A stretch of DNA of 57,498 nt from Clostridiales bacterium (lineage in GTDB: Bacteria; Bacillota; Desulfotomaculia; Desulfotomaculales; VENG01), in the NCBI GenBank assembly GCA_016278505.1, contig JADQBQ010000038.1, positions 1 through 57,498 on the forward strand, read 5' to 3'. This document shows positions 21,792 through 42,222 of this stretch, in pieces; position 1 is the stretch's first letter, and every line of letters begins with the position of its first letter. The position numbers were made by a program, and so were the translations under genes. The notes under the pieces were generated by a model, which saw only the letters and a program-made list of their open reading frames with translations, had not been told where the DNA came from and did no database searches.

Positions 21792-21805
21792 TCCACTTAT
21801 GAAAT

Positions 21806-26226: not shown

Positions 26227-26760
26227 TTAACTGCCAACCTTCAATTTTGACACGATTAATTGTGGATCTAAGGGTTGTTCTAATAAATAAATTTCTGTTC
26301 TGGGATACTCAAAATCAATCTGGCCAACTACCATAAATGTTAAATACTTACTGTTATCATCTTCTATAATATGGGATAATCTTACTGCGTTGATTATATA
26401 GCTATAGGCCCGGTTATCGGTATCCCAATTCTTTTTTACTGGAGAATATATCGCAATAATACAAAGTGCTTGGGAAAATTTAATGTTTATTTCCGATAAG
26501 GCACTTACAATTTTACTCACCCAAAACCGGCGCTGGTTTCGGTAACCTGTACGAGTTCGCGGTAATACTTCGTCTACAGTAACTCTAAGCACACCGTCCT
26601 CTACCCATGCCCGGGCTCCTTCAACCTTATCCAAGATATCCCCCTCTGTATCCTGCATCTCTTTTTTCTCGTTTTCAATTATTTCGTCCAGCTTATATTT
26701 AGCTTCATCCAACTGACGATATACTGTCTTCAACTTTTCGCAATTGCTCGTTCCCTGCAC
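26227..26760 (-). CDS. RusA-like nuclease candidate
   Basis: 177 residues. An N-terminal coiled coil (LDEAKYKLDEIIENEKKEM) precedes a domain with the pattern VKKNWDTDNRAYSYIINAV then HIIEDDNSKYL. The DxDN...DD spacing fits RusA-type Holliday-junction resolvases. Overall similarity is weak, so a RusA fold is inference. It overlaps the NusG-paralog gene by 56 nt in another frame; a start at a later Met would reduce the overlap. Confidence 0.45.
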   Translation of the reverse strand: MQGTSNCEKLKTVYRQLDEAKYKLDEIIENEKKEMQDTEGDILDKVEGARAWVEDGVLRVTVDEVLPRTRTGYRNQRRFWVSKIVSALSEINIKFSQALCIIAIYSPVKKNWDTDNRAYSYIINAVRLSHIIEDDNSKYLTFMVVGQIDFEYPRTEIYLLEQPLDPQLIVSKLKVGS

Positions 26761-27160
26761 TTATAACTACCTCCCCATCAAAGAATTCTACCTGGCTGTG
26801 GTTCATGCCGCCTTTCTTAATAACCCCTGCTAATCCCTGAAAAGAGCCGGAAACGATAGTAACGTTGTCACCTTTTCTGAAACTTGGTTTAGGTTTTACA
26901 GGGTCGGCGTTATTTTCTCTGTACTTTTCTACTTCATCTTCCGATACTGTGCCTAATACCCTTACCTTGGAACTGGTTACATATAGTTGAGGCCAGTAAT
27001 GTGAGTGAATGAAAAGGTAACCCGGCATTATATATTTCTTTTCTTTTGTCGGGATAACGATATCGTTAACAGTATTAAAACCATTATTGCTTTGTTTTTT
27101 CAGGTATTTTTTAATTTTTTTCTCATGACCCGTTGTTACTTGAATGGCAAACCACGGCAT
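26705..27160 (-). CDS. NusG-family specialised antitermination factor (RfaH/LoaP-like paralog)
   Basis: About 151 residues: an NGN domain (PWFAIQVTTGHEKKIKKYL, YIMPGYLFIHS) and a C-terminal KOW (FRKGDNVTIVSGSFQGLAG). The genome's housekeeping nusG is expected beside secE/rplK, so this is a specialised paralog. Such paralogs (RfaH, LoaP, UpxY) let RNA polymerase read through terminators in long operons. Three hairpin terminators directly after promoters of nearby genes are plausible targets. ATG 27160 follows GGAGG. Confidence 0.85.
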   Translation of the reverse strand: MPWFAIQVTTGHEKKIKKYLKKQSNNGFNTVNDIVIPTKEKKYIMPGYLFIHSHYWPQLYVTSSKVRVLGTVSEDEVEKYRENNADPVKPKPSFRKGDNVTIVSGSFQGLAGVIKKGGMNHSQVEFFDGEVVISAGNEQLRKVEDSISSVG

Positions 27161-27162
27161 AT

Positions 27163-27315
27163 TCACCCCTCCTTTCTTTTACCTTTAATGTTTAAATGAA
27201 TGCTTATAATGAGTGGGATAAGTGTACTAATGATGATCGGTGCAGAAAAATTCATTAAAGTAAATAATAGTACCAATATGAAGCTGAAAAGAGTACCTAC
27301 AAACACAAGGTCCAT
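27163..27315 (-). CDS. Small two-pass membrane protein (50 residues)
   Basis: ATG 27315 to TGA 27163, overlapping the ribosome site and start region of the NusG-paralog gene. Two hydrophobic stretches (LFSFILVLLFTLMNF and PIIISTLIPLIISIHL) with a basic end KGKRKEG. The coupling with the downstream start argues that it is translated. Function unknown. Confidence 0.5.
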   Translation of the reverse strand: MDLVFVGTLFSFILVLLFTLMNFSAPIIISTLIPLIISIHLNIKGKRKEG

Positions 27316-27332
27316 AAAGCCAAACCTTTCGT

Positions 27333-27635
27333 TTAAATATCCATGAAAGCATCTATATCTATTTCTGGCCTTTCTGAAGTTGTTTCAGTTTTTTGTTCTT
27401 CCTTTTTAGCAGTAATAGTTGCACCGTCTTCTAATAGATGCTCTATCTTTGATAGCCTTTGATCAATTCTTTGGTTCAACCTTTGCTCTAAATTGTCAAT
27501 GGATTCCATTATTTTACCTGTATTATCCAGTAAATTTCTAATCACCTCACTTCTTTTTCCACGAGGCAAATCATAAATCCAATGATCTTTCGGGACATAA
27601 ACAGTTAATCTTCTAAAATCCTTTATATGGATCAC
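27333..27635 (-). CDS. Ribbon-helix-helix protein, likely ParR-type adaptor
   Basis: 100 residues. The N-terminus has one strand and two helices (RLTVYVPKDHWIYDLPRGK, RSEVIRNLLDN), the ribbon-helix-helix outline of ParR/CopG proteins. A coiled coil follows (IDNLEQRLNQRIDQRLSKIE), then an acidic end. It is the second gene after a ParM-like actin, so it probably links the filament to a centromere. The frame starts at a GTG directly after a G8 run that doubles as the ribosome site. Confidence 0.6.
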   Translation of the reverse strand: MIHIKDFRRLTVYVPKDHWIYDLPRGKRSEVIRNLLDNTGKIMESIDNLEQRLNQRIDQRLSKIEHLLEDGATITAKKEEQKTETTSERPEIDIDAFMDI

Positions 27636-27722
27636 CCCCCCCTACAAAGCTTAAATGTAGACACTCCTTAGTTCTTGAAACACTCATTTTACGCGGTTTC
27701 CCAAGTTGCGGCTTGTAGAAAA

Positions 27723-27860
27723 TGTACACATGAGTTCAAGCAAATTTTTAAAGGTTTACTAAGTGTCACATTTTAAGACAATAAAAATCTCTCTAACCCC
27801 ATGAATAAAGGGTTAGAGAGATTACTGATTGTACACATTACTTTTTCAACGATGTATACA
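27723..27860. repeat. Three palindromic TGTAYACA sites, candidate parC/operator
   Basis: TGTACACA at 27723 and 27830, and TGTATACA at 27853, all within the 287-bp gap between the ParM and ParR-like genes. A TTGACA box (about 27877) and an intrinsic terminator lie between or near them. Palindromic sites around a partition gene pair fit ParR binding for segregation and autoregulation. Confidence 0.5.
27781..27823 (-). terminator. Intrinsic terminator between the ParM and ParR-like genes
   Basis: A perfect 14-bp stem (AATCTCTCTAACCC with GGGTTAGAGAGATT, 27786-27823) and a 10-nt loop, followed on the minus strand by TTTTATT. It ends parM transcripts and would attenuate any transcript from the TTGACA box at about 27877 toward the ParR-like gene. 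Confidence 0.8.
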
Positions 27861-27922
27861 TTTTCATAAATTACAATCTTGTCAACCCAAGGAAACACCG
27901 GGTTTTTTAGAATTCCAACGTG

Positions 27923-28879
27923 TCACACAATGCTTAAAAACCCATCAGCGTTTGCCCATTGGGGATTCGGAAGTATCTCGGCACCAGCAAAATTCATTGA
28001 AAGTGAAGGTAACATCTCGACTCCTCCACCGGTGAGGTATATCTTTTTAATGAATGCCAATCTATCCCCTAAAGAAGCCTGTACCTGGTCGGCAATTATG
28101 CGGGCCGTCTCAGTTTGTGCCTTTTCAATGACTTGCCTGAAGTTCATCTCTTTTCCATAAAAAGTACACATACCGTTATCCTCAATAATCCCGGGTACTC
28201 TTACAATAGCCAACGGCATACCCGTCCGGGATTGAAATTCCTGCGAAATATCATCATAAATATTGTGAACTCCGACTTCAATAGACCCACACAGGCTGGA
28301 TATAGGTTTCAATTTCCCATTTGCCAACTCTGCGGTAACATAGTCAGTAGTCTTTTGGCCAACGTCAATAAGTAATACCATACCATTCCTGGGCAGTTCC
28401 GGAGCAGTCAATAAGGACCCTGCCCCTTGTGGGTATATGATAACATTTCCAAAGCTGATACGGCTTAACTTCTGGCCGTTAATGGAAACTTCAGCATGTA
28501 AACCTTGAAGGTGTTCCTGAAGTTCCTTCTTTTGAGTACGGTAATAAGCAACAGGGAGGCCGGCCACAAGTGTATCCCCCGGAGTGCTGTTTAACCCTCT
28601 GGCAGCCGTAAAAACTAAAATGTCATGGTTCGGGTGATGGTGTTTCTCTCTGTCCAGGGAAAAACTTGCGACGTGACCCTCTTTCAGAGCCATATCACCT
28701 ACAAAGTATTTACTCGTATCCCCGTTGACGTAACAGATTTCAACTACATAACCTGTACCGTTTTTTGAAAGGTCAGCCAGTGGTAAGTCTTTATAAGGGG
28801 ATACCACTGACGGTATTATTAACCTGTTAGTTGGGGTTACTGCCTTAACATGGCTATATCCAACATCAATTGCAATCAT
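27923..28879 (-). CDS. parM: ParM/StbA-like plasmid segregation actin
   Basis: 318 residues with actin-fold motifs: phosphate 1 (AIDVGYSHVKAV), phosphate 2 (VLLIDVGQKTTDYV) and the adenosine motif (KIYLTGGGVEML). ParM-like actins form filaments that push plasmid copies apart together with ParR and parC. ATG 28879 is preferred; a TTG seven codons earlier overlaps the GGAG ribosome site. The ParR-like gene follows downstream. A partition actin argues for a plasmid or plasmid-like stage of this region. Confidence 0.85.
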   Translation of the reverse strand: MIAIDVGYSHVKAVTPTNRLIIPSVVSPYKDLPLADLSKNGTGYVVEICYVNGDTSKYFVGDMALKEGHVASFSLDREKHHHPNHDILVFTAARGLNSTPGDTLVAGLPVAYYRTQKKELQEHLQGLHAEVSINGQKLSRISFGNVIIYPQGAGSLLTAPELPRNGMVLLIDVGQKTTDYVTAELANGKLKPISSLCGSIEVGVHNIYDDISQEFQSRTGMPLAIVRVPGIIEDNGMCTFYGKEMNFRQVIEKAQTETARIIADQVQASLGDRLAFIKKIYLTGGGVEMLPSLSMNFAGAEILPNPQWANADGFLSIV

Positions 28880-28900
28880 TAAAACAATCACTCCTTTCAA

Positions 28901-29395
28901 TTAACCAACTTCAACTGAAATACTTGTTATCTGATTTTCTTTTAAAATCTTCTCAACACGCCTTTGTACGATTTTTACTCCTTTTACTTTACAGTTTTTT
29001 AAGATAACGATTACATGGTTTTCATCCCATACCACATAGTCATTCTGCCGCAGGTTATTTTTAACCTGCGTTTTAACTTGATCAGACACCGGATAACTAA
29101 AGTGAATGATAATGGCAACTTCATTCTTCTTATTTGCACCTAATATTTTAACAATGTTCTTATAGAAATCTTGCATTTCCCAGGGTTTAACCACATAATC
29201 GACATAATATTTAGTGTCATTTTTAGTTAAGAACGCATTACAAAAAGGCCAAAAATCAATTAACGTATCGGCAGTATCTTGATTTTTGGTTTTAGCACGG
29301 ATATTATAATGCGACACTTTACCTTTAGACTTAATTATATTAATTGATTCAATTCCTTTTACCTTAGTGAATTGGGCAATCACTTTGGTGCTCAA
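28901..29395 (-). CDS. Degenerate GGDEF-like protein
   Basis: 164 residues, not matching a named family. The C-terminal third aligns by eye with the neighbouring GGDEF: NDYVVWDENHVIVIL, then KGVKIVQRRVEKIL, against DFLARYGGDEFVAVL and NKVSRRVQELI. The active-site loop reads WDENH in place of GGDEF, so catalysis is not expected. Its ATG overlaps the stop of the active GGDEF (ATGA), giving coupled translation. A c-di-GMP-independent partner or receptor is plausible. Confidence 0.5.
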   Translation of the reverse strand: MSTKVIAQFTKVKGIESINIIKSKGKVSHYNIRAKTKNQDTADTLIDFWPFCNAFLTKNDTKYYVDYVVKPWEMQDFYKNIVKILGANKKNEVAIIIHFSYPVSDQVKTQVKNNLRQNDYVVWDENHVIVILKNCKVKGVKIVQRRVEKILKENQITSISVEVG

Positions 29396-30162
29396 GATGA
29401 ATACCTCCTTTTTTTATTTTCATACATCCTGACATCAGCTAACCCAATTAATTTTTCTGAATTATCTGCATCTAATGGATAAACAGATAATCCAACCGAT
29501 AATGTAATAGTAATGCCGTGCCTTGCCTTAATGATCAACTCCTGCACTCGTCTTGATACTTTATTACCTTTTTGCATAGACGAACCCGGTAATACAGCAA
29601 CGAATTCATCACCACCATACCTTGCTAAAAAGTCGGTTGATCTAACAACTTTTTTTAACTCTTTAACCGTTTCCCTTAAAGCATCATCACCTATTAAATG
29701 TCCATACTTGTCATTTATAATCTTGAAATTATTCAGGTCCATAAAAAGTATACAAAACATTATTGACTTATCTATCTGGTTATCAATCTCCTCGTTTAAT
29801 GCGGCACGATTTGGAAGACCGGTAAGGGCATCCAATGCTGATTTCTGCTGAATTAAGTTATAAGCTATAGAGTTTTCAATAGCTTGAAAACAATAATGTG
29901 CTATAAACTGTTGGTCATCAAGGTTACTGGGATTGTTTAACCCTAACCATCCACTGTTTTTCAGTGGAATATAAATCATGTTATTGCCCGAGATATGCGA
30001 TTCTAATGGCTCAAAAAAATCACCCGCAGAATTATATCCTGTAAGGTGACTGTTCTCATTCGGTTTTATTATCAAGTATTTGGACCCGGTGCTTTTTAAA
30101 ACATGGGGCAGGATAAACTTAATAGTTTCCTGTAGCCCGTTTAACGGAGGTAGAGGGAGCAC
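29392..30162 (-). CDS. Diguanylate cyclase with N-terminal sensor-like region
   Basis: 256 residues. The N-terminal 110 residues look like a GAF-type fold (KYLIIKPNENSHLTGYN, YIPLKNSGWLGLNN). The GGDEF domain has DALTGLPNR, the catalytic RYGGDEFVAV and an RxxD I-site (RSTD), so it should make c-di-GMP and be product-inhibited. GTG 30162 has GGAGG eight bases upstream. Lies downstream of the gene interrupted by IscB and within the pilus/partition block, so it may set local c-di-GMP levels for the pilus. Confidence 0.88.
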   Translation of the reverse strand: MLPLPPLNGLQETIKFILPHVLKSTGSKYLIIKPNENSHLTGYNSAGDFFEPLESHISGNNMIYIPLKNSGWLGLNNPSNLDDQQFIAHYCFQAIENSIAYNLIQQKSALDALTGLPNRAALNEEIDNQIDKSIMFCILFMDLNNFKIINDKYGHLIGDDALRETVKELKKVVRSTDFLARYGGDEFVAVLPGSSMQKGNKVSRRVQELIIKARHGITITLSVGLSVYPLDADNSEKLIGLADVRMYENKKRRYSS

Positions 30163-30355
30163 ACGATACACCTCCGTTCTTCATATAGTCTCGAAGTTGT
30201 TCCGGTTTAACCAACCCGGTTATAACGATACTGGTTTCTTTTTTAAGGTCTAATTCTTCATGATCATCTAGCAGGATACCCCTCATTTTAATGAGGGGAG
30301 GAATGCGTCGGGAATACCCGAGCATATTTTTCACTGTTACTTACCACCTTTCTTT

Positions 30356-31651
30356 TTAAATTGCATAAGAATACCCATCAGCACGCAGGGTTAAGCTCAG
30401 ATACCTGTGGTGTACCCCTTGTGCTATAACGGTACCTTTGACGTTTTTGATGTCAAAGTAACCACTTGACCGTACAGCTATGAAACCAATATAGTTACCT
30501 TGATATTTTCCTTTAGTTACAATGGCCTTAACTAAGTCGCCGGTCTGGAAACCGAAATGTAACTTTTTACGCTGACGGTGCCCTTTAGGGAAACCAAAAC
30601 GGTCAACTCTAGCCATTAGACGATTACCACGGCCCACTGCTCTTATTATTATTGGTTTAATGTAGGTATTCTTTAGCTGTGAGGTACTGGCCCCCACACA
30701 GGCTGCGTCAAAATAGTGGGTCTTGGGTAGGTTTTGAATCGTGCGGTTGTATTTTGTTCTACCACCTGTGCCCATTTCTAGGTTGTCGGTTATCTCCTTT
30801 GCCTGATTCCAAATGTACCACCGGGTGCTATTTAGTATTGCAACGTTTTTGAGCGGTTTTTTAGCATTGGACTGTACTTCCGGGTGGCCATATTCCTCGG
30901 CTGTATGGTTACCCTTGTCTTGATTACAGGTGTGGCAAGCTACGGTCAGGTTACTTACCCGGTCACTGCCGCCACGGGATTTTGGTATAATATGTTCTTT
31001 TTCTAGTCTGGTGTCTTTGCTCTTACCGTGGCAATATTGACATATGTGGCCGTATTTTTTGAGTAAATATTCCCAAACTTCGTAGCCGAAAAGAGTACCG
31101 CGCTGGTACTCTATGCCTTTGATTTCCGGGTTCTGTAGCTTTTGGGTGTCGAATCGTACGGTTTCTATGGAGATTGCTGTTATGGGACATAGACGCATAA
31201 GCTTCTTGATCCAGTTAATTACACAGTCGGCTTTGGCTTTAACTGTAGGCGGTAGCCAGCCTTTGGGTCTTTTGCGGTTGTCGAATCGTTTTGGACGGTA
31301 TCTAGTTTTACGACTCCTACGGTTACGCCTTAACATGGAACGCTTGTACATAACCGTAACCATCTTGCCGTCTTTGTTTTTAACCATGAATTGCTTATGG
31401 TGTAGCTCTGCCGCCCATAAGATATAACCGTCAGATTCACGAATGATTGCTAGTCCAGTTATTTTACTGCCGGGGTCGATTTTAAGTCGTAACGGTTCTG
31501 TTACACCTACAGCAATTTTCAACCGTATGGTGAATGGGTGTAATTTATGCACCATTGCCTTGCCTTTGCTGAGTAATTCCCTGGCCCTTGCCGGGTGGCA
31601 GGGCATCAGGGAATGATGATTCTTGTCTAACACAAATACCCAGTTTTGCAT
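30356..31651 (-). CDS. iscB: IscB RNA-guided DNA endonuclease
   Basis: 431 residues with all IscB parts: an N-terminal PLMP-type region (VFVLDKNHHSLMPCHP), RuvC-I (LKIDPGSKITGLAI, Asp59), an Arg-rich bridge helix (RRNRRSRKTRYR, 109-120), RuvC-II (ISIETVRFD, Glu163), and an HNH with zinc Cys (CQYC 204/207; CHTC 239/242) and EKEHIIP (His220). RuvC-III is HYFDAA (His312, Asp315), then a C-terminal TAM-interacting domain. Every catalytic residue is present. IscB is the ancestor of Cas9 and uses the omega-RNA encoded just upstream. Confidence 0.95.
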   Translation of the reverse strand: MQNWVFVLDKNHHSLMPCHPARARELLSKGKAMVHKLHPFTIRLKIAVGVTEPLRLKIDPGSKITGLAIIRESDGYILWAAELHHKQFMVKNKDGKMVTVMYKRSMLRRNRRSRKTRYRPKRFDNRKRPKGWLPPTVKAKADCVINWIKKLMRLCPITAISIETVRFDTQKLQNPEIKGIEYQRGTLFGYEVWEYLLKKYGHICQYCHGKSKDTRLEKEHIIPKSRGGSDRVSNLTVACHTCNQDKGNHTAEEYGHPEVQSNAKKPLKNVAILNSTRWYIWNQAKEITDNLEMGTGGRTKYNRTIQNLPKTHYFDAACVGASTSQLKNTYIKPIIIRAVGRGNRLMARVDRFGFPKGHRQRKKLHFGFQTGDLVKAIVTKGKYQGNYIGFIAVRSSGYFDIKNVKGTVIAQGVHHRYLSLTLRADGYSYAI

Positions 31652-31654
31652 TTC

Positions 31655-31991
31655 GAGTTACCTCGCTCTCTCATGTATGGTGACGCCACTAACCGTGCCC
31701 GGTTAGGGTCTCTCCTCGGGAATGCACTGGAACGGCTTGACCCGTACCCGTTTCGTGGTTACCCCTACCGTATCTGCAGTACAGGTTTTAGGGTCCGGGA
31801 CTGGAGAAGCATCCCGGAGTAAGTCTTTACGCCTTCCAGGTGCGGTGCGTGGTCAACGGGTGCCCCCTCCCACGAAACATATTAGCTTTGCCGTGCAAGC
31901 GACTAGAGTCTCCGGCACTACCCTGGTCAATCGCAACTAAAGTAAAGGTTTGTAGGTGTTCTACATGCCTCCGACTTTAGTCGGGGGTGAT
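31655..31991 (-). ncRNA. Omega-RNA (HEARO) of the IscB element
   Basis: The roughly 335 nt between the left end and the iscB ATG has the strongly conserved HEARO blocks, for example TGCCGGAGACTCTAGTCG, GCTAATATGTTTCGTGGG and AGACCCTAACCGGGC. It has no open frame worth keeping. In IscB systems the guide is the flank at the 5' end of the RNA, here the host-gene sequence CGGGAAACTATTATTGTTA just outside 31991. Confidence 0.9.
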
Positions 31992-32097
31992 TAACAATAA
32001 TAGTTTCCCGTTTGGACCATATAAGTTACCCGAAAGTAACATGCCAGCTCTAAGATATGCAGCAGGCAATTTCAAATTATCACCCCCATTAATGTAA

Positions 32098-32127
32098 AAA
32101 AGGCTGTCATATCAGACAGCCTTTTCC
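32098..32127 (-). terminator. Terminator of the pilus operon end
   Basis: On the minus strand AAAAGGCTGTC and GACAGCCTTTT pair around TGATAT and run into TTTTTTAC. The stop codon of the TadE-like gene (32112) lies inside the stem. Confidence 0.8.
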
Positions 32128-32744
32128 AAAACTACTATATAGTCACCCTTTTGTTTTACTATCTTTGCTGCCGTCCAACGGGTATAAGTTGTTTTTTTTC
32201 CTGCCACCTGTTTTAATTCTGCTTGCACAACCGCAATTACACCTGGTGACGATAATCTTACCTTAACTGATTCATCCAGAGTAAACTCTTCAGGGAATCC
32301 ATTACAATGAAATTCGTTTCTAGTTGTGTTCTGGCCATCGTAATCGAATTGAATTCCTGAATTACCGTTATATATTATTAACTTGTATCGTGGTTTTTCA
32401 GAAAAAGCAGAGTGTTTAGTTGGTTGAAGATTGTCTAATTCTAAGTTGTGACTCAGGATATTTTTAAAAGATTCATGAGCCCTTTGAGGGTCAATAACCG
32501 GATATTTGTCTTTAGGCTTTTTAGCGTTAGGATTCTTTTTATCCTTCTTTCCTTTATTTTTGCCTTTATCATCATATTGTTTAGCTGCAGATTTTACTGC
32601 CATGGAGGTACCTTCTTTAAGGATAACATCCCCGGATACTACACCCTGGGATAATCTTATTACCCAAAATAATACTAAAAGGCATAAGAAGATTAACGAT
32701 AGGCTTACTACAATATTACCGTTCTCATTATTGTATAGCATCAT
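32112..32744 (-). CDS. TadE/TadG-like membrane-anchored pseudopilin
   Basis: 210 residues. A short N-terminus with NENG precedes a membrane helix (IVVSLSLIFLCLLVLFWVI), as in TadE/G-like minor pilins processed after a Gly-type site. Then comes a very basic, Lys/Asn-rich linker (KNKGKKDKKNPNAKKPKDK) and a beta-rich domain. Last gene of the Tad pilus block. The family call rests on layout and position. Confidence 0.6.
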   Translation of the reverse strand: MMLYNNENGNIVVSLSLIFLCLLVLFWVIRLSQGVVSGDVILKEGTSMAVKSAAKQYDDKGKNKGKKDKKNPNAKKPKDKYPVIDPQRAHESFKNILSHNLELDNLQPTKHSAFSEKPRYKLIIYNGNSGIQFDYDGQNTTRNEFHCNGFPEEFTLDESVKVRLSSPGVIAVVQAELKQVAGKKTTYTRWTAAKIVKQKGDYIVVLEKAV

Positions 32745-32764
32745 TGAACCACCTAATTTCCTTG

Positions 32765-33202
32765 CTAATTCTTGGTTTTTGAACTTACTACACTACCTTC
32801 TACTCCGATCTTCAGCGGTTCCCCGGGAGTACCTCCTATAATTGTCCTGGCAGTGAAGTTATCGAAATCCTTTGGTGTAAATTCTATCCGCAAACTAACT
32901 TCATCCGGCCAATATACTGGTTTTTTATTATTTTCAAGGATGTCGCCTGTTATCTGAATCGTATCGGGGTCTGCACCCCGGTCTATCAGTTTTTGCTCCA
33001 ACACCATCTTATCTTGTTGGGTTAAGCCCCCATTGACTTCCATCTTGGACAACGTATTATATTTTAAACTTTCAGTATGGTTGTAAATAGTAAAGACTCC
33101 CCAAATCTGAATTGTAAGGATCAAAATACAGATTAAAACGGGTAAGGTTAACAGAGTGGTTATTATTGTCCACCCATCTTCTTCTTTTAATAGCCGGACC
33201 AA
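32765..33202 (-). CDS. TadE-like pseudopilin
   Basis: 145 residues from a TTG at 33202. A start LLKEEDGWTIITTLLTLPVL has the E-G-(W/F)-T-type processing motif and the membrane helix of TadE minor pilins; a soluble domain follows. The frame is open to 33316, but that extension overlaps the 59-residue Flp-like gene in another frame and has a non-native composition. Sits between the Flp-like gene and the TadE/G-like gene. Confidence 0.65.
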   Translation of the reverse strand: MVRLLKEEDGWTIITTLLTLPVLICILILTIQIWGVFTIYNHTESLKYNTLSKMEVNGGLTQQDKMVLEQKLIDRGADPDTIQITGDILENNKKPVYWPDEVSLRIEFTPKDFDNFTARTIIGGTPGEPLKIGVEGSVVSSKTKN

Positions 33203-33366
33203 ATCATATCCCTGATTGTATTTTCCCCTTCTGATCCTACTCCGTTTATTGCCTCTGCTATGCCCAGGACTATTGGTATCGTGCCTACTCCTATGATTAC
33301 CGCCCCGACTAACCACTCGACAATTCCCCCTTCTTCTGATAACAGAAAAAATTTGAAACTACTCAT
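33187..33366 (-). CDS. Flp-like small membrane pseudopilin (59 residues)
   Basis: ATG 33366 overlaps the stop of the prepilin peptidase gene (33363). MSSFKFFLLSEEGGIVEW is followed by a membrane helix (LVGAVIIGVGTIPIVLGIA), the EEG plus helix pattern of Flp/Tad pilins without the Tyr. Overlaps on both sides support translation. Confidence 0.65.
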   Translation of the reverse strand: MSSFKFFLLSEEGGIVEWLVGAVIIGVGTIPIVLGIAEAINGVGSEGENTIRDMIWSGY

Positions 33367-33917
33367 ATCAAAAACCCTCCGGTAAGGGCAGATACTGTGC
33401 TTATTACTAACCCTAAAAATATTGCCGGTGCTCCTATGTGTTGGATACCATCACCGTGGGTAATGTAACCAGCGTCGGGAATTCTGTATATCCCTTCCAT
33501 CTTCATCTCCTCTTTTATTGCTGAAAGAGCTTTCCTGATTTTAAAACCATGAATCTTAAACCTCATAAGGAGCCCAGCAATCAAAAACGACAGTAAAACA
33601 AACAGGAAGAAGACTACATTATACATGGGCTGCAGGCAAGCTACGATCCCTGCTATTAGTTTAACGTCACCGGCACCAATGCCTCCTGTTTTTGTTATTA
33701 AGAATCCCAGTCCTATGGTAACGGCTATGTTAATCAAAAACAGATTAATATCACCGAAGATAAGTGTCCAGGCCCATCCGAAAATAATAAGAGGAAATGT
33801 TACTACATTTTTAATCTTACCCCATTTGATATCGGTAACCACCGATACGGTTGCTCCTATCAAGGCAACGAGAACGGGTACATAGTAAAAATCAGAAACT
33901 AAAGGAATTAATTGCAT
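33363..33917 (-). CDS. cpaA: Prepilin peptidase CpaA/TadV (A24 family)
   Basis: 184 residues with six hydrophobic segments. The two catalytic Asp motifs of A24 aspartic prepilin peptidases are visible: VVTDIKWGKIKN (Asp in TM2 region) and GIGAGDVKL (GxGD). TadV-type peptidases cleave Flp and TadE pilins after Gly. No N-methylation domain, as usual for TadV. Overlaps the small Flp-like genes on both sides. Confidence 0.9.
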   Translation of the reverse strand: MQLIPLVSDFYYVPVLVALIGATVSVVTDIKWGKIKNVVTFPLIIFGWAWTLIFGDINLFLINIAVTIGLGFLITKTGGIGAGDVKLIAGIVACLQPMYNVVFFLFVLLSFLIAGLLMRFKIHGFKIRKALSAIKEEMKMEGIYRIPDAGYITHGDGIQHIGAPAIFLGLVISTVSALTGGFLI

Positions 33918-34053
33918 TGATCACATTACCCCCTTGTAAACGTAATGCTGCGAGAATCCCGAACAAGATGGCGGTACTTCCCAGGCTGACAATCGTGACT
34001 CTTATTAAATATTCAGCTATTGTGCCTTCTTCATTTAATAAAAAATTTTTCAA
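33892..34053 (-). CDS. Flp-like pilin (53 residues)
   Basis: TTG 34053 with GGAGG eight bases upstream. MKNFLLNEEGTIAEY matches the Flp motif (EEG, then A-E-Y), followed by LIRVTIVSLGSTAILFGIL. Overlaps the prepilin peptidase start (33917) by 26 nt. A minor Flp pilin is the likely role. Confidence 0.75.
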   Translation of the reverse strand: MKNFLLNEEGTIAEYLIRVTIVSLGSTAILFGILAALRLQGGNVINAINSFSF

Positions 34054-34101
34054 AACAAATCCTCCCTTTCTGGAAAATTTAATTACTCTGAAAAATAAAA
34101 A

Positions 34102-34136: not shown

Positions 34137-34209
34137 AATATCCACTTTCAAGAATACCGCCGGGTATTCTTCCCATTTGAACTGGGGAGTAGTTGACTGC
34201 TATAGCTCT

Positions 34210-34485
34210 TTACTCACTGACAGTACCACTGGTAACTTCAATTTCGGTAGCTGCCCCGGTCATGCCCGGATTACCGGCGTCAACAACTTCTCCACCCGTG
34301 GGAAGCTGGTTTACTGTTTGCAGGCTACCCATATCATGAGCAACTTTACCACCCTGTTCATAGTTGGCACCGTAAATTCCGAAACAAACAGTGGCCGCTC
34401 CGACACCCAGAATTGCAGTCCATGTCAAAGATTCTGCGGTATAACCTTCTTCGTTCTGTACGAATTTCCTTACCTTGCCAAACAT
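34210..34485 (-). CDS. Flp-type major pilin 1
   Basis: 91 residues: a short basic leader (MFGKVRKFVQ), NEEGYTAES as the processing region, then the helix LTWTAILGVGAATVCFGIY. The C-terminal third is Gly/Thr-rich. The first 57 residues are identical to pilin 2 upstream, and the DNA of that part is nearly identical, so the pair arose by recent duplication. Prepilin cleavage is expected after the Gly of NEEG. A pilin with a longer C-terminus than classic Flp. Confidence 0.8.
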   Translation of the reverse strand: MFGKVRKFVQNEEGYTAESLTWTAILGVGAATVCFGIYGANYEQGGKVAHDMGSLQTVNQLPTGGEVVDAGNPGMTGAATEIEVTSGTVSE

Positions 34486-34588
34486 ACAATAAACCTCCTG
34501 TAAAATGTTTTAATATTAAAATCCGAAGATACTTACTGGTTTATCCCGTCCGTCCAACTCAAATTTACTTTATGATTCTACACAAGAA

Positions 34589-34855
34589 TTAATTGCTGCC
34601 TGTAACTTCAATAGTGGTAGCTGCCCCGGTCATGCCCGGATTACCGGGCTGAATAACTTCTCCACCATGAGGGAGACTTTCTACAGTCTGCAGGCTGCCC
34701 ATATCGTGAGCAACTTTACCACCCTGTTCATAGTTGGCACCGTAAATTCCGAAACAAACAGTGGCCGCTCCGACACCCAGAATTGCAGTCCATGTCAAAG
34801 ATTCTGCGGTATAACCTTCTTCGTTCTGTACGAATTTCCTTACCTTGCCAAACAT
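34589..34855 (-). CDS. Flp-type major pilin 2
   Basis: 88 residues. Identical to pilin 1 for the first 57 residues, then different (ESLPHGGEVIQPGNPG against NQLPTGGEVVDAGNPG) and with a different end. First gene after the leader hairpin and the TTGACG/TAATAT promoter at 34955-34983. Ribosome site AGGAGG. Encodes the likely main shaft subunit together with pilin 1. Confidence 0.8.
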   Translation of the reverse strand: MFGKVRKFVQNEEGYTAESLTWTAILGVGAATVCFGIYGANYEQGGKVAHDMGSLQTVESLPHGGEVIQPGNPGMTGAATTIEVTGSN

Positions 34856-34900
34856 ATAATAAACCTCCTGTAAAAATTTCCCCTTAAATTAGGGTATAAA

Positions 34901-34948
34901 AATAGACGGGAAAACCAGCAAGTTATCTTACTTACGGTTTTCCCGTCT
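34901..34948 (-). terminator. Leader hairpin/intrinsic terminator of the Flp operon
   Basis: ATAGACGGGAAAACC/GGTTTTCCCGTCTAT pair perfectly (15 bp) with a short loop and run into TTTTTATA. It starts within a few bases of the expected transcription start, so it is an attenuator or stability hairpin in the leader. It also lies after the giant gene. Confidence 0.8.
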
Positions 34949-34954
34949 ATATAC

Positions 34955-34983
34955 ATATTACAACACTTCTACAGTTTCGTCAA
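34955..34983 (-). promoter_or_regulatory. Promoter of the Flp pilin operon
   Basis: TTGACG (34983-34978), exactly 17 bp, TAATAT (34960-34955) on the minus strand. Close to consensus for the housekeeping sigma. Transcription would begin about 34948, directly at the leader hairpin. Confidence 0.7.
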
Positions 34984-35010
34984 CATCTAAATAAAATTTC
35001 TACTATTGGG

Positions 35011-38000
35011 TTAATCGATAGTTACTGGCACGATACAGGTTGCATCTTTATATTTTGCTTCCAAGTTCCATGTTCCCGTACTTATACCAGTAATTATTCC
35101 TTCATTGGAAACGTGTATTGGAGAGAACCAACGAGTATTATAGATAACCTTTTCGGTTACATCTTCACTCGTACCGTCATCGTAATGAATAACGGCTTTT
35201 AACTGCTTGGATTCCCCTACTTCCAGGTTGATAGGGCTAGGTGTTATGACCAGTCCATCAACTGATGAAGTGGTTTCCGATACCTTCACTGTAATGGTAT
35301 CAGTAAACCCTTTGTAGCTTACCTCAAGGCCCATCTGTCCGGCGTGTTGGGTTGTCATTAACCCATTGCCATCTACCAGTACCGGTGTGGCCCAGTAGGT
35401 ATCGTAGTCTGCTTTATTGGTTACATCTTCGGTTGTATCGTCACTGTAGTTAGCTGTTACTGTAAGTTGTTGAACCTCACCCATTTCAAGTTCTACTAGG
35501 CCCGGCTCAACAGTTATACCGGTGATTTCGGGTTCAGGCAGAACCTTAATCGGTACGGTAACATTTACTCCGTCGTAGCTTATCTCGAAGTCTACTTCGC
35601 CGCTATTAAGCGTTGTTACCAGACCCGTGTTGGATACATGGACCGGGTGGTTCCAGTAGTTGTCGTAACTTGCTTCTTCCGTTACTTCTACGGTGGAACC
35701 ATCACTGTAGTTAGCTATCACCGTAAGCTGTTCGGTATCGCCCGGGTTAAGCTCTACGGAATTAGGTTCAACGGTTAAGTGGGTTACTTCCGGTTCTGAA
35801 TTCACCTTTACATGAACCGTGTCAGTAAATCCCTGGTACTTAACCTTAACGTCTGCTTCACCGGCCTGTTTCGTACTAACCAACCCGGTGACGTCAATGT
35901 TTACCGGATAGGACCAGTGGTTTTCGTAATTCGTTTCATCAGTTACGTTTACATTCGAACCATCATCATAGTTGGCTGTTACCGTTAGCTGTTGGGTATC
36001 ACCAGGGTCAAGTTCTACGGAATTAGGCTCAACATCTATGCTTTCAATTTGAGGCTCTGCATTAACTTTTACATGAACTGTATCGTTGAATCCTTCGTAC
36101 TTAACCTTAACATCTGCTTCCCCAGCCTGCTTGGTTGTTATTAACCCTGCATCATCAATAATTACCGGGAACGACCAGTGATTCTCGTATTCTGCTTCAT
36201 TTGTTATATCCACGGTAGCACCGTCATCGTAGTTGGCTGTTACTGTAAGCTGCTGCGTTTCGTCTAATTCAAGCTCAACTGAATCAGGGGCTACTGTAAT
36301 GCTGGTAATCTGAGGTTCCTGGTTTACCTTAACGTGGACTATATCGTTGAATCCTTCATATTCAACCCTAATGTCTTTTTCACCGGCCTGCTTGGTAGTG
36401 ATTAGCCCCGTATCATTAATGTTCACTGGAAAGGACCAGTGGTTTTCGTATTCTGCTTCCTCTGTTACATCTTCAGTTGTACCATCACCATAGCTGACTA
36501 TAGCCGTTAATTGTTGTTCTTCACCCATGTCCAAGGTTACATTTTTGGGTGTTACGGTTAAGCCTGCAACATTCGGGTCGGTTACGGTTACTTCTGCTTC
36601 GGTATTCTTACCATCATACTCTATCGAGATAGTGGTATTGCCCTGGTTTTCACCGGTTATTAATCCATTTTCACTGACCGAAGCTGTATTAGAATCGTTG
36701 GAATTGTAATTCGCTTCGTCAGTTATAGAAACCGTGCTTCCGTCAGAGTAGTGAGCTGTTACTTCTAGCTGTACAGTCTCAGCTTTGGAAACACTTACAT
36801 CCTCTGCGGAAATGGATTCTAATACAGGGGCAATGATATTTACTGGAACATCGACTGATTGACCATTAAATTCAACGGTAATATTCGTATTACCTTCGTT
36901 TATTCTGTTGACTAACCCATTGTTCACGTTTGCAATTCCTGAATCATCTGAAGTGTAGCTCGATTGCTCCGTTACATCTTCGGTTGTTCCGTCGGAGTAA
37001 TTAGCAACTACCGTAAGCTGTTCAGATTCACCGGCTGTTACGTTTACTTCCGTGGGGGTTACTGTGATACTTTCAACTACCGGTGCGGATACGTTAACCT
37101 GTACGTTAACACTCTGGCCTTCGTAGGTTACCTCTACGCTGGTTGTTCCTTCACCTACGCCGGTTACTGTGTTCTCGTCTGTAGTAGCTATTGAATCATT
37201 GTCAGGATTGTAATTTGATTCGTTGGTTACTTCTTGACTGCTACCGTCGGAGTAATTAGCAACCACCGTGAGCTGTTCGGATTTTCCGGCTGTTACGTTT
37301 ACTTCCGTGGGCGTTACTGTGATATCCGTCAGTACAGGTTCAGGATCGTTTACTGTTACCGAAACTTCCACTGATTCTTCTTCGTAAGAGAGCGTAAGCA
37401 TGGTTGAACCTGGTGATACTCCCGTAACTAGACCATCGTTACTTACGGTTGCTGTATCTTCTTCGCCGGAAGTGCATTCTACAAGTCCGGTTACATTAGC
37501 GGAAGTACCGTCGCTGTAGTTCGCTGTTACGGTCATTTGTGCCGTTTCATCCTGGTCTATATTAACCGGATCAGGCTCTACCGTAAAGCTGTCTATCGCT
37601 ATGGTAGAAGGATTTTCTCCTTCTATCCCATCTAGGTCGTCTAACGGGTTACCGTTTTCATTCTCAATCGGGTAGTCTTCGTCAGGGTTGTAATCTATCA
37701 CAGGGTCACCAAAGAGTGGGGCTCCAAGGGTTAGAATTATCTTGTTACCCTCTACATCAACGGAAACTATGGGTATTTCGGTACCCTGATCGAAAACTCT
37801 AAAGCCTGCGTTACCTTCGTAATGTGTTTCATTCATGTCGCTTGGGGTTATTATTGTAACCGTCCGGCCATCTTCAAATACTACAGGTGTTTCTCCTACT
37901 ACAACTGGTGCAGTGCTGTTATTCTCATCTACTACGATTGTACTGCTTCCCCCACCGGAACCTATCTCTGTTAGCGGTGTTCCGCCCCCAGTGATGATTT

Positions 38001-41000
38001 CGTAGTCAGGGTTGGGTGTGTACCCAATGTTTATTGTTTCACCGGAAGGTACAGGGTAGTCTAAATGCAGATCAAGGCCAGTTCCATTACCATCTGTTAC
38101 TACTCTATTAACTGGAATGGTTGTACCTCCACTGATAATTTCAAACCCGGCACTTCCGTCATAGTCAATGTGTTCAATTACGGTCGGCAGGTCAATGTGA
38201 ACAACGTCGCCACTATCACCTACTACCACGGTTGAACGCTCTACTGTCAATGGGGTTTCACTGTTGTTCTCTTCAACTCCGGTTGTAATGTCCAGTTCAT
38301 CACCTTCTACTGGTGTGATCGGACAGTCATCGTTAGGATTGAAGTCAACTACTACGTCACTTCCCATGGTTATTTGGTGATCCAGGTGAAGCCATACTTC
38401 GCTGAACGGCCACTCTGTACCGTCTTTAACTTCAACTTTGGTTACAGGGACATCTATACCGTTTTCTGTTACAGTGAATCCGGCTGCGCAATTATAAGTT
38501 ACGGTCTCTAATAATTGCGGAACACGCAGTACGATAATGTCACCCTCGGGTAATACCTCGTTTGCCAGTTCAAATACGGTTACCGTAGCAGTTACGGTGA
38601 GATCGTCATATTCTGCGGTTATTGTGGATTCCCCAGCTCCTACCGCTGTTACAAGCCCGTTCTCGTCTACCATTGCTACTGATTGGTTATCGCTGGTGTA
38701 GCTGGATTCGCTTGTTATATCGTTATCGTTATTGTCGGTTACAGTGAGTTGTGCAGTCTCGTCTACTAGAAGGTCAACTTCAGTAGGTTCTACTGAAATG
38801 CTTGTTATATCAACCGGGTCAGTTGCTCCGGTTGGGCTGAATGCGGCGGCTAAAACAATATCAGAATGCCCGGTGAAGTTTGTTATCACTTGCCCTGTCT
38901 CTACATCCCATACCTTGGCGGTGTCATCATAACTACCCGTTATGGCTTTGGTACCGTCCGGGCTGAAGGCGGCGGCATTAACCATACTAGAATGCCCGGT
39001 GAAGTTCGTTATTACTTGGCCAGTCTCTACGTCCCATACCTTGGCGGTTTTATCACTACTACCCGTTATGGCTTTGGTTCCGTCCGGACTAAAGGCGACA
39101 GCATTAACCCAATCATAATGCCCAGTGAAGTCTGTTATCACTTCCCCGGTCTCTACGCCCCATATCTTGGCGGTTTTATCACCACTACCCGTTATAGCTT
39201 TGGTTCCTTCCGGACTGAAGGCGACTGCCGAAATAGCCTTAGAATGCCCGGTGAAGTTCGTTATTACTTCCCCGGTCTCTACGTCCCATACCTTGGCGAT
39301 GCTGTCAAGACTGCCCGTTATAGCTTTGGTGCCGTCCGGACTGAATGCGGCGGCAAAAATAGTATCAGAATGCTCGGTGAAGTTTGTTATTACTTGCCCT
39401 GTCTCCACGTCCCATACCTTGGCGGTGCCATCAGTACTACCCGTTATGGCTTTGGTACCGTCCGGGCTGAAGGCGGAGGTACTAACCAAACCAGAATGCC
39501 CGGTGAAGTTCGTTATTACTTGGCCAGTTTCTACGTCCCATACCTTGGCGGTTTTATCATTACTACCCGTTATGGCTTTGGTTCCGTCCGGACTAAAGGC
39601 GACTTCCTGAATAGTATCAGAATGCTTGGTGAAGTTTGTTATTACTTGGCCAGTCTCCACGTCCCATACCTTGACGGTATCATCAACACTACCCGTTATT
39701 GCCAGTAAGGGCTGACCGTTTTCTGCTTCAACCGTTACTGATACGGTCTCTGTAATGTCCTCGTAGGATACGGTTATCTCTGTTTCCCCGACTCCTACCG
39801 CTGTTACAAGCCCGTTCTCGTCTACCGTTGCTACTGATTCGTTATCGCTGGTGTAGCTGGATTCGCTGGTTATATCGTTACCGTTATTGTCGGTTACGGT
39901 GAGTTGTTTGGTTTCGCCTGTCATTATATCAATCGTGTCAGGTTCTATCACTATAACTTCAATTGGTTGTTCCACATTACCAAAGGTTTGCAAGTAAGGA
40001 TAGCTTGTACTTTCATTGATCCCCCAGATGTTAGTGAAGTTCCAATTATTGAAGGTGGATTGTTGCATCATTTCTGTTGTGGTTTTAGGGGCTCTATCGC
40101 CACGTCCATCCGTTTGACCCGTGGTCATAGCGTCAAAGTAATTGTTAGAGATAGAGGTGTTGGTATAGTCCCCGAATAAGCCTCCAACATCACTTCCGTT
40201 ACTATCTACATACCCAGCTGCGTAACTTCTGTTTATACTCACCCTATCATAGGTATCTCCACTGGCTTGTCCTACTAGCCCTCCTACAACATCAGAACCG
40301 GATACATCAGCAGTTGAGAAACAATCATTTAGGCTGGTTTCCATCCTGGCAAAACCGATTAGTCCACCAACCCTTGTTTCGTCACCTTCTACTATGCCTG
40401 TGGAGTAGCTTTGGTTTACTCTTGCATCATAAGCATAACCAATTAACCCACCGACTGTGCTTGCACCACTTACATTACAGGTAGAATAACTGTCTTCGAT
40501 TGAATTTCTTGAGGCATTACCAATTAGCCCACCAATATTAGAAGAATTACCGTTAACACTGCCTGTAGAATAACATTTAGTTATCGTTTTGAAAGAGTAA
40601 ATATTACCAGCTAAAGCTCCTACACCGGCCCTGCCTGTTATATCTACATCTTCTAATCCCAGGTTTTCTACAGTACCTCGTAAACTTCCAAAGAATCCTA
40701 CATATGAATCATCGGGTTGATTGATATAAAGGTTTTTTATTACATGATTGTTTCCATTAAATGAACCTTCAAAGTTATCAATCGGTTTCCATCCTTCTCC
40801 ATCCTGCCATTTGGTCAGAGTAATGTCATTGGCAAGTTTGAAGTGACTGCTTAAATCGTACCTCACGTTGTTTAATTGATCTTCGGTTTCAATGATAAAC
40901 GGGTCATTCTCCGTACCACTGCCGCTTGCGTAAACACCGGTACTATCAACATATACGCTCTCGGGTGCTTGTGAGAATGCTTTTAGGTATGGGTAGCTGT

Positions 41001-42066
41001 TTCCTTCATCAATTGCCCAGATGTTTGTAAAGTTCCAATTAGTATATCCCGTTTGAAACTGCATTCCGTAGGTTGACTTCTGGGCTCTATCGCCACGTCC
41101 GTCCGTTTGACCCGTGGTCATAGCGTCAAAGTAATTGTTAGAGATAGAGGTGTTGGTATAGTCCCCGAATAAGCCTCCAACATCACTTCCGTTACTATCT
41201 ACATACCCAGCTGCGTAACTTCTGTTTATACTCACCCTATCATAGGTATCTCCACTGGCTTGTCCTACTAGCCCTCCTACAACATCAGAACCGGATACAT
41301 CAGCAGTTGAGAAACAATCATTTAGGCTGGTTTCCATCCTGGCAAAACCGATTAGTCCACCAACCCTTGTTTCGTCACCTTCTACTATGCCTGTGGAGTA
41401 GCTTTGGTTTACTCTTGCATCATAAGCATAACCAATTAACCCACCGACTGTGCTTGCACCACTTACATTACAGGTAGAATAACTGTCTTCGATTGAATTT
41501 CTTGAGGCATTACCAATTAGCCCACCAATATTAGAAGAATTACCGTTAACACTGCCTGTAGAATAACATTTAGTTATCGTTTTGAAAGAGTAAATATTAC
41601 CAGCTAAAGCTCCTACACCGGCCCTGCCTGTTATATCTACATCTTCTAATCCCAGGTTTTCTACAGTACCTCGTAAACTTCCAAAGAATCCTACATATGA
41701 ATCATCGGGTTGATTGATATAAAGGTTTTTTATTACATGATTGTTTCCATTAAATGAACCTTTAAAGTTATCAATCGGTTCCCAACCCTCTCCGTCCTGC
41801 CATTTGGTCAGCGTTATATCGTTGGCAAGTTTGAAGTGGGCCGATAAATGATTCCGAACATTGTTTAGCTGGTCTTCGGTCTCGATAATATACGGGTCAC
41901 TTTCCGTACCGCTACCACCCGCGAATTCACTTCCCCAGGCAAAACTCGCCGTGCCGACCATCATCGCAAGGGTTAGAATAAACACCATTAAAAACTTTAA
42001 ATTTCGTGTATACACTTCTTTTTCGCTCCCTTCTTGAATTTTAAAAGAGGGAGCTGCGCATTTCAT
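35011..42066 (-). CDS. Giant exported multidomain protein (GLUG, WD40, BIG2 repeats)
   Basis: 2351 residues. The signal (LKFLMVFILTLAMMVG) ends near FAWGSE. Next are two nearly identical 331-residue blocks rich in GLUG motifs (GGLIGNAS, SYSTGIVEG). A first BIG2 Ig-like domain follows, then a seven-blade WD40 propeller (about 788-1080; KVWDVETGQVITNF repeated). After a second BIG2 come three copies of a beta domain (GSAGFEIISGG type) and ten more BIG2 domains to the end. No LPXTG or SLH motif. Probably a secreted adhesin or pilus-linked surface protein. ATG 42066 has AGGAGG, part of a hairpin with the upstream leader. Confidence 0.88.
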   Translation of the reverse strand: MKCAAPSFKIQEGSEKEVYTRNLKFLMVFILTLAMMVGTASFAWGSEFAGGSGTESDPYIIETEDQLNNVRNHLSAHFKLANDITLTKWQDGEGWEPIDNFKGSFNGNNHVIKNLYINQPDDSYVGFFGSLRGTVENLGLEDVDITGRAGVGALAGNIYSFKTITKCYSTGSVNGNSSNIGGLIGNASRNSIEDSYSTCNVSGASTVGGLIGYAYDARVNQSYSTGIVEGDETRVGGLIGFARMETSLNDCFSTADVSGSDVVGGLVGQASGDTYDRVSINRSYAAGYVDSNGSDVGGLFGDYTNTSISNNYFDAMTTGQTDGRGDRAQKSTYGMQFQTGYTNWNFTNIWAIDEGNSYPYLKAFSQAPESVYVDSTGVYASGSGTENDPFIIETEDQLNNVRYDLSSHFKLANDITLTKWQDGEGWKPIDNFEGSFNGNNHVIKNLYINQPDDSYVGFFGSLRGTVENLGLEDVDITGRAGVGALAGNIYSFKTITKCYSTGSVNGNSSNIGGLIGNASRNSIEDSYSTCNVSGASTVGGLIGYAYDARVNQSYSTGIVEGDETRVGGLIGFARMETSLNDCFSTADVSGSDVVGGLVGQASGDTYDRVSINRSYAAGYVDSNGSDVGGLFGDYTNTSISNNYFDAMTTGQTDGRGDRAPKTTTEMMQQSTFNNWNFTNIWGINESTSYPYLQTFGNVEQPIEVIVIEPDTIDIMTGETKQLTVTDNNGNDITSESSYTSDNESVATVDENGLVTAVGVGETEITVSYEDITETVSVTVEAENGQPLLAITGSVDDTVKVWDVETGQVITNFTKHSDTIQEVAFSPDGTKAITGSNDKTAKVWDVETGQVITNFTGHSGLVSTSAFSPDGTKAITGSTDGTAKVWDVETGQVITNFTEHSDTIFAAAFSPDGTKAITGSLDSIAKVWDVETGEVITNFTGHSKAISAVAFSPEGTKAITGSGDKTAKIWGVETGEVITDFTGHYDWVNAVAFSPDGTKAITGSSDKTAKVWDVETGQVITNFTGHSSMVNAAAFSPDGTKAITGSYDDTAKVWDVETGQVITNFTGHSDIVLAAAFSPTGATDPVDITSISVEPTEVDLLVDETAQLTVTDNNDNDITSESSYTSDNQSVAMVDENGLVTAVGAGESTITAEYDDLTVTATVTVFELANEVLPEGDIIVLRVPQLLETVTYNCAAGFTVTENGIDVPVTKVEVKDGTEWPFSEVWLHLDHQITMGSDVVVDFNPNDDCPITPVEGDELDITTGVEENNSETPLTVERSTVVVGDSGDVVHIDLPTVIEHIDYDGSAGFEIISGGTTIPVNRVVTDGNGTGLDLHLDYPVPSGETINIGYTPNPDYEIITGGGTPLTEIGSGGGSSTIVVDENNSTAPVVVGETPVVFEDGRTVTIITPSDMNETHYEGNAGFRVFDQGTEIPIVSVDVEGNKIILTLGAPLFGDPVIDYNPDEDYPIENENGNPLDDLDGIEGENPSTIAIDSFTVEPDPVNIDQDETAQMTVTANYSDGTSANVTGLVECTSGEEDTATVSNDGLVTGVSPGSTMLTLSYEEESVEVSVTVNDPEPVLTDITVTPTEVNVTAGKSEQLTVVANYSDGSSQEVTNESNYNPDNDSIATTDENTVTGVGEGTTSVEVTYEGQSVNVQVNVSAPVVESITVTPTEVNVTAGESEQLTVVANYSDGTTEDVTEQSSYTSDDSGIANVNNGLVNRINEGNTNITVEFNGQSVDVPVNIIAPVLESISAEDVSVSKAETVQLEVTAHYSDGSTVSITDEANYNSNDSNTASVSENGLITGENQGNTTISIEYDGKNTEAEVTVTDPNVAGLTVTPKNVTLDMGEEQQLTAIVSYGDGTTEDVTEEAEYENHWSFPVNINDTGLITTKQAGEKDIRVEYEGFNDIVHVKVNQEPQITSITVAPDSVELELDETQQLTVTANYDDGATVDITNEAEYENHWSFPVIIDDAGLITTKQAGEADVKVKYEGFNDTVHVKVNAEPQIESIDVEPNSVELDPGDTQQLTVTANYDDGSNVNVTDETNYENHWSYPVNIDVTGLVSTKQAGEADVKVKYQGFTDTVHVKVNSEPEVTHLTVEPNSVELNPGDTEQLTVIANYSDGSTVEVTEEASYDNYWNHPVHVSNTGLVTTLNSGEVDFEISYDGVNVTVPIKVLPEPEITGITVEPGLVELEMGEVQQLTVTANYSDDTTEDVTNKADYDTYWATPVLVDGNGLMTTQHAGQMGLEVSYKGFTDTITVKVSETTSSVDGLVITPSPINLEVGESKQLKAVIHYDDGTSEDVTEKVIYNTRWFSPIHVSNEGIITGISTGTWNLEAKYKDATCIVPVTID
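40088..41780 (-). repeat. Direct repeats, 993-bp period, inside the giant gene
   Basis: About 690 bp at 40088-40786 recur nearly base for base at 41081-41779, offset 993 bp (331 codons). The flanks of the copies have diverged much more. Silent sites match too, so the duplication is recent or kept uniform by gene conversion. Confidence 0.85.
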
Positions 42067-42069
42067 TCA

Positions 42070-42116
42070 ACCCCCTCCTCTCTTGACTGGTCACCACAAC
42101 TTACTCGGGAGGGGGT
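42070..42116 (-). promoter_or_regulatory. Ribosome-site-sequestering hairpin before the giant gene
   Basis: ACCCCCTCC (RNA side 42116-42108) can pair perfectly (9 bp) with GGAGGGGGT (42078-42070), which contains the ribosome site of the giant gene. A 29-nt loop separates them. Folded, the start at 42066 would be hidden. Confidence 0.55.
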
Positions 42117-42133
42117 CTTATTAAGTTCTCCAT
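42101..42133 (-). CDS. Possible leader peptide (10 residues, PPP)
   Basis: ATG 42133 to TAA 42101 encodes MENLIRPPPE. Its proline codons are the arm that would mask the giant gene's ribosome site. A GGAGGTGAT lies upstream (42156-42148) with longer spacing than ideal. No other gene uses that ribosome site. Confidence 0.35.
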   Translation of the reverse strand: MENLIRPPPE

Positions 42134-42180
42134 TTCCTTGAAAAGTATCACCTCCAATACCTAAATTACATGAACACAAA

Positions 42181-42222
42181 AAAAGGACGGGGCAACCGTT
42201 GTATCACGGTTTCCCCGTCCTC
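42181..42222 (-). terminator. Leader hairpin/terminator upstream of the giant gene
   Basis: GGACGGGGAAACCGT and ACGGTTGCCCCGTCC pair almost fully, then TTTTTTT. A weak promoter (TTAACC-N17-TACTAT) lies just before it on the minus strand, so it may be an attenuator as well as the end of the tadC transcript. The 5' arm resembles the Flp leader hairpin. Confidence 0.7.

Follow-up and report, generated by a model that had tools for sequence, protein, structure and literature searches.

The window analysed here, a stretch of 57,498 nucleotides from a Clostridiales bacterium, carries the genes for Flp-type pilins and for a giant surface protein on the minus strand of a mobile element. Both sets of genes are preceded by a leader (A for the pilins, B for the giant protein) in which a promoter leads directly into a strong intrinsic terminator, and the 5' arms of the two terminators follow the same pattern. 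We consider it somewhat probable, judging from sequence comparison, that these leaders are conserved and conditional transcription attenuators in which the 5' arm would be the putative recognition site of an antiterminator.

Two leaders with a common terminator arm

All features of the two leaders are located on the minus strand. The first Flp-type pilin gene (34589..34855) lies directly 3' of leader A and is followed by a tandem copy, pilin gene 2 (34210..34485), which is 89% identical. The gene 3' of leader B (35011..42066) encodes a protein of 2351 amino acids with WD40 and Big_2 repeats and a signal-peptide-like start. A first-pass annotation had described both promoters as leading into intrinsic terminators, and both arrangements were located. 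The promoter of leader A, TTGACG-N17-TAATAT (34955..34983; -35 box at 34983-34978, -10 box at 34960-34955), is separated by a 7-nt gap from the conserved arm of a terminator (34903..34949) with an RNA fold of -28.9 kcal/mol (z -8.8) that is followed by TTTTTATA; the predicted transcription start at about 34948 coincides with the first bases of the stem. The promoter of leader B, TTAACC-N17-TACTAT (42227..42255; -35 box at 42255-42250, -10 box at 42232-42227), is weak (8/12) and leads into a terminator (42181..42224) with a fold of -27.3 kcal/mol (z -6.9) and a T run behind it.

In both leaders GACGGGRAAACCGT begins 7 nt past the -10 box and opens the strong terminator. The conserved 5' arms read GACGGGAAAACCGT in leader A (34947-34934) and GACGGGGAAACCGT in leader B (42219-42206), and the likeness between them that had been noted earlier was borne out, as they share a 14-mer pattern, GACGGGNAAACCGT, which has exactly two occurrences in the genome of 3.92 Mb, one at each of these leaders. 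When one mismatch was allowed, the pattern was no commoner in this genome than the control. The similarity of the leaders extends beyond the arm: from the -35 box to the arm 21/36 positions are identical without gaps (shuffle p 0.0006), and over a longer stretch upstream of the arm 41/81 are identical, again ungapped (shuffle p ~7e-5). GTAGAA direct repeats 31 bp apart were found around each -35 box, starting at 35003 and 34972 in leader A (34967..35003) and at 42275 and 42244 in leader B (42239..42275). A degenerate arm, GACGGGATAAACCAGT (34535..34550), was observed before pilin gene 2, where the 3' arm of the terminator has been lost.

When counted generically, the promoters and terminators of the leader region were at shuffle level; the case therefore rests on conservation and not on bare consensus matches. 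No Rfam match was found at leader A or B up to E=1, and the exact leader pattern had 0 matches in genome_contigs (85k genomes) and viral_contigs.

A third terminator, described earlier as following a TTGACA box, is indeed present together with that box (27885) between the genes for ParM and an RHH-like protein (27786..27823, minus strand, -23.5 kcal/mol). No recognisable -10 box was found at 16-18 nt from this TTGACA, and the terminator arm, AATCTCTCTAACCC, is unrelated to those of A and B; lacking both a -10 box and the common arm, the terminator was not retained as a member of the set. Three TGTRTACA-like palindromes surround it at 27718-27865, possibly a partition or operator site.

Conservation of the leaders in related genomes

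Tad modules of relatives were sought within the order with the pilin and the Tad ATPase as queries. Two close Tad/Flp modules were found, one in G051 (ATPase 66% identical), which belongs to a different family than the source genome (G000) and carries a homologous module, and the other in G029 (63%). The pilins of these two genomes are 42-44% identical to the window pilin (42% in G051). The leaders of the G051 pilin, the G051 giant homologue and the G029 pilin are referred to as C, D and E respectively.

Leader C consists of TTGACA-N18-TAAAAT (11/12), 7 nt, GACGGGAAAACCGT, a terminator and the pilin gene. Its arm is identical to that of leader A at 14/14 positions and lies at the same distance from the -10 box; the flanks cannot be aligned, with 12/36 identities upstream of the arm and 13/40 downstream, which is the chance level. 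Leader D has a variant arm, GGCGGGGGGACCGT, within a strong terminator (-27.3 kcal/mol) and has no promoter. Leader E consists of TTGACA-N17-TACACT, GCGGGGGAACCGC, two tandem terminators and the pilin gene; its arm starts about 25 nt past the -10 box, with GGCGGGGGAACCGC placed within a long-loop hairpin (-47.7) and the second terminator immediately behind. The upstream genes vary among leaders A-E and the downstream gene is always that of a pilin or a giant protein, which suggests that the element goes with the downstream gene.

By chance, the consensus of the arm would be expected about 0.0015 times per 300-nt leader. In 113 genomes searched with a relaxed arm pattern, every match outside G000 and G051 overlaps an ORF on either strand. 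A covariance model (R1), which misses the long-loop form of leader E, scored the true leaders at 48-59 bits and all others at 37 bits or less, and the lower-scoring matches, where inspected, were mostly ordinary terminators without the mini-hairpin described below. A look-alike ACGG-CCGT terminator in G029 was rejected, as it precedes an ssb-like gene and does not have the leader layout. The Tad ATPase search yielded only relatives below 60% identity in plasmids and none in viral contigs.

A possible mini-hairpin within the arm

On its own, the arm is predicted to fold as a hairpin with a 4-bp stem and a loop of five purines in which G is first and A is last (RCGG-GRRRA-CCGY). The predicted mini-hairpins are ACGG-GAAAA-CCGU in leader A (34934..34946, minus strand, -4.6 kcal/mol) and ACGG-GGAAA-CCGU in leader B (42206..42218, minus strand), and the further forms among the leaders are GCGG-GGGGA-CCGU and GCGG-GGGAA-CCGC. 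The closing pair is A-U, G-U or G-C across the leaders with pairing kept, and a covariation test on four of the five leaders was not significant. The mini-hairpin and the terminator are mutually exclusive folds.

About 25% of terminator arms form a 4-bp mini-stem by chance; foldability was therefore discarded as stand-alone evidence, and it is the conservation of the arm that is informative. A conserved GAC in leader C lies outside the predicted terminator stem, and in leaders B and E the base that follows GGTT in the 3' arm is mismatched, which indicates that the 5' arm is kept beyond the pairing needs of the terminator.

The NusG paralog

The specialised NusG paralog reported near 26705-27160 is encoded at 27166-26705 (26705..27166, minus strand; 153 aa, NGN and KOW domains, Pfam NusG 1.5e-7). 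The housekeeping NusG is encoded separately on contig C46, and the paralog is an additional copy within the gene cluster. By family cut-offs it is distinct from LoaP, RfaH and UpxY, with 37.3 bits against the LoaP family NF033641 (cut-off 125; relatives 37-50 bits) and 23.6 bits against the RfaH family TIGR01955 (cut-off 144.5). In a structure model (pTM 0.49) its C-terminal domain shows KOW-like strands, and the domain might also switch fold, as to the alpha-helical autoinhibitory form of RfaH.

Matches to the paralog were found in ten of the 150 genomes searched, its own included, and one of these is weak, leaving nine clear carriers; none was found in plasmid records. The paralog belongs to a conjugation block with the conserved order ParM - paralog - VirD4 - S1, and nearly all carriers have it in a conjugation block with VirD4, mostly behind ParM. 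This conserved setting suggests that its most natural role is at conjugation genes. In the window, virD4/traG is apparently interrupted by a group II intron (20498-24988, minus strand; maturase at 21806-23632, domain match at 21697-21793), and the two halves are contiguous in relatives.

The search for the hairpin beside the paralog in relatives, advised in the first-pass annotation, was positive in part: among the nine clear carriers a noncoding arm motif was found in G000 and G051, and in none of the other seven, by a pattern search that diverged copies may escape. G029 has the same ParM-RHH-VirD4-S1 backbone with other genes at the site of the paralog. The sole extra NusG-like protein of this genome (L088 1255-1803, on contig C12) has an NGN domain and no recognisable KOW domain, and is encoded on the contig that also carries the Tad module and T4SS-like genes. 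The co-occurrence of paralog and leader is suggestive at best.

Proposed attenuation and alternative readings

The comparison rests on five leaders in three genomes, among which the layout of an intrinsic leader attenuator is complete in A, C and E, with a weak promoter in B and no promoter in D. Conditional attenuation of the pilus and adhesin genes, as proposed at first, gains support from the order promoter-arm-terminator-pilin recurring in two other genomes, and it is the link to the NusG paralog that fails to follow. In the sequence, a sigma-70-type promoter places the predicted start of transcription on, or close to, the first base of the strong terminator that lies between promoter and gene. 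In an attenuator of this kind, most transcripts would by default stop after about 45-50 nt. A trans-acting factor would then bind the arm, probably in the form of the nascent mini-hairpin RCGG-GRRRA-CCGY, and would either keep the 5' arm from the 3' arm or modify the polymerase. Relief of termination would allow transcription to enter the pilin operon and the giant gene.

The leaders might instead end in ordinary 3' terminators of the upstream genes, with promoter boxes that either occur by chance or give rise to short abortive RNAs and with the true promoters located downstream. Most of the terminators do follow a stop codon at a distance of no more than about 100 nt and could double as such, regional consensus counts are at shuffle level, and a 9/12 promoter-like site between terminator C and its gene counts against attenuation. 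We nevertheless regard this reading as unlikely, as the motif and its spacing track the downstream gene despite different upstream genes, the stretch from terminator to gene contains no promoter better than 7-8/12 in A, B and E, and a plain terminator has no need of a 5' arm conserved to the letter. A still less probable reading takes the arm as a DNA operator, since its ACGG-N5-CCGT inverted repeat at about +2 to +14 is palindromic as DNA and would suit a dimeric repressor, the likeness to a terminator being a by-product. This agrees with the position of the arm at about +1 in A, B and C, but not with leader D, where the arm is not near a promoter, nor with the distance from the -10 box in leader E, and the arm is always embedded in a terminator hairpin. 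It is very unlikely that the hairpins chiefly stabilise the mRNAs through a 5'-terminal stem that blocks 5' decay, with little termination. The predicted start falls on or near the first stem base in A, B and C as this would require; T runs, however, lie behind the hairpins, G029 has two tandem terminators, and leader E starts further in.

If the leaders are attenuators, the element-borne NusG paralog is one candidate for the factor, although a doubtful one. It would read the arm either as LoaP reads an RNA hairpin or as RfaH reads ops in non-template DNA, and would let the polymerase pass the terminators. The paralog is on the same contig as the leaders in G000 (about 8 kb away) and G051 (about 38 kb), in both of which GGDEF and W28901-like genes separate the Tad module from the paralog block; NGN and KOW folds are present in the structure model, and LoaP, which suppresses intrinsic termination and binds to a hairpin in leader RNA (PMC12691694), provides a precedent. 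Against the earlier claim that the paralog may read through the leader terminators stand the seven of nine carriers in which the pattern search found no noncoding arm motif, and G029, which has a leader without this paralog family. In addition, a second NusG-like gene occurs anyway in about 23 of 105 genomes (~22%), and the loop is GRRRA and not UNCG.

We think it improbable that the full proposal holds. In it, a new antitermination signal would operate on mobile elements of Desulfotomaculales-type bacteria, in the form of a 13-nt boxB-like pentaloop hairpin inside the terminator 5' arm at +1. Its reader would be the NusG paralog or some other factor encoded by the element, a single event would both recognise the signal and disrupt the terminator, and the pilus and surface-protein cargo would be switched with conjugation. 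An attenuator at these leaders would be an undescribed cis-element that, on conjugative elements, gates the genes for Tad/Flp pilins and giant surface proteins. As a minimal testable case, it would have the same 14 nucleotides serve both as recognition hairpin and as terminator arm, and it would bear on the targets of the numerous orphan NusG paralogs that conjugative elements carry.

Comparison with known antitermination systems

A 13-nt pentaloop element fused to a terminator arm at +1 of element-borne Tad pilin operons was absent from Rfam and from the literature searched. Attenuators with an antiterminator hairpin overlapping the terminator are known from BglG/LicT and ANTAR systems. The RAT of BglG, SacY and LicT and the dual hairpins of ANTAR systems are the closest mechanistic analogue of the leaders described here, in that the antiterminator hairpin overlaps the 5' arm of the leader terminator. 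They differ in size and loop, as RAT is about 30 nt long and ANTAR targets have two hexaloops, whereas the arm here has 13 nt and a pentaloop; among the 40 window proteins scanned, none had a BglG/ANTAR-type RNA-binding domain. Lambda boxB, with a GAAAA or GAAGA pentaloop, resembles arms A-E in its short stem and GRRRA loop, but it is separate from the terminator, with no overlap, whereas arms A-E lie within one.

The LoaP/dfn leader of Bacillus velezensis (PMC12691694) is alike in being a terminator-bearing leader in a Gram-positive-type bacterium, with a NusG paralog on hand and a small conserved RNA hairpin. The dfn hairpin is of the UNCG type and is located upstream of the terminator and separate from it, whereas the GRRRA pentaloop here lies inside the terminator 5' arm, and a UNCG-type hairpin upstream of the terminator is absent from leaders A and B. 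RfaH/ops and ActX (PMC7819879, PMC8955417) are similar as specialised NusG paralogs tied to conjugation or pilus operons, ops being a short and G-rich element of the operon in non-template DNA. RfaH is, however, inefficient against intrinsic terminators, the arm here is not ops, and the paralog here is modelled with a KOW beta barrel. The conAn system of pLS20-type conjugation operons (PMC8955417) likewise works by antitermination, on conjugative elements of Gram-positive bacteria that contain many internal terminators, but it has other components than the leaders here.

A second leader type in paralog carriers

A second conserved leader motif, AAAAARATGTCACAATRWT followed by a terminator, was found at loci L175-L183 and L214-L221 (G009, G051, G109 and G060). 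These leaders consist of a promoter-like box, a short hairpin, an A-rich motif, an intrinsic terminator and the gene, a layout similar to that of LoaP- or conAn-type leaders. The 16-mer AARATGTCACAATRWT has two, two and four copies in the paralog carriers G009, G051 and G109 respectively, and beyond these it occurs in one other of the 113 genomes, G041, without a terminator. A sequence model of this type identified extra copies in both G009 and G051, as well as a single copy in G060, a genome without such a paralog. Leaders of the second type thus occur in several copies per genome, mostly in carriers of the same NusG-paralog family, and have no Rfam match. The motif is absent from the window, with nothing above noise in G000, and was therefore rejected as the signal of the paralog in the window.

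Additional features of the window

The giant gene contains an internal duplication at 40465-41567 with a spacing of 993 bp and seven WD40 repeats of 126 nt each at 38834-39715. Behind leader B, a hairpin of about -19 kcal/mol (42070-42116, minus strand) pairs CCCCCTCC with the ribosome-binding site of the giant gene, GGAGGGGG, and a short ORF, MENLIRPPPE, terminates within it; translational control of the giant gene by this hairpin is possible.

An RRXRR/HNH (IscB-like) gene (30356-31995, minus strand) forms an insertion with the Flp operon on one side and the GGDEF gene on the other, and a HEARO RNA, scoring below the gathering threshold, lies just 5' of it. A c-di-GMP-I riboswitch was found at 7855-7947 (minus strand), 5' of a gene with an HD domain (7770-7201) and of one for a CBS-GGDEF protein. 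Finally, two near-identical and roughly bidirectional terminators (53925-53957 and 54890-54922) enclose a CAAX-protease-like gene, which lies on the opposite strand (54145-54882), an arrangement that resembles a cargo insertion with the terminator duplicated.
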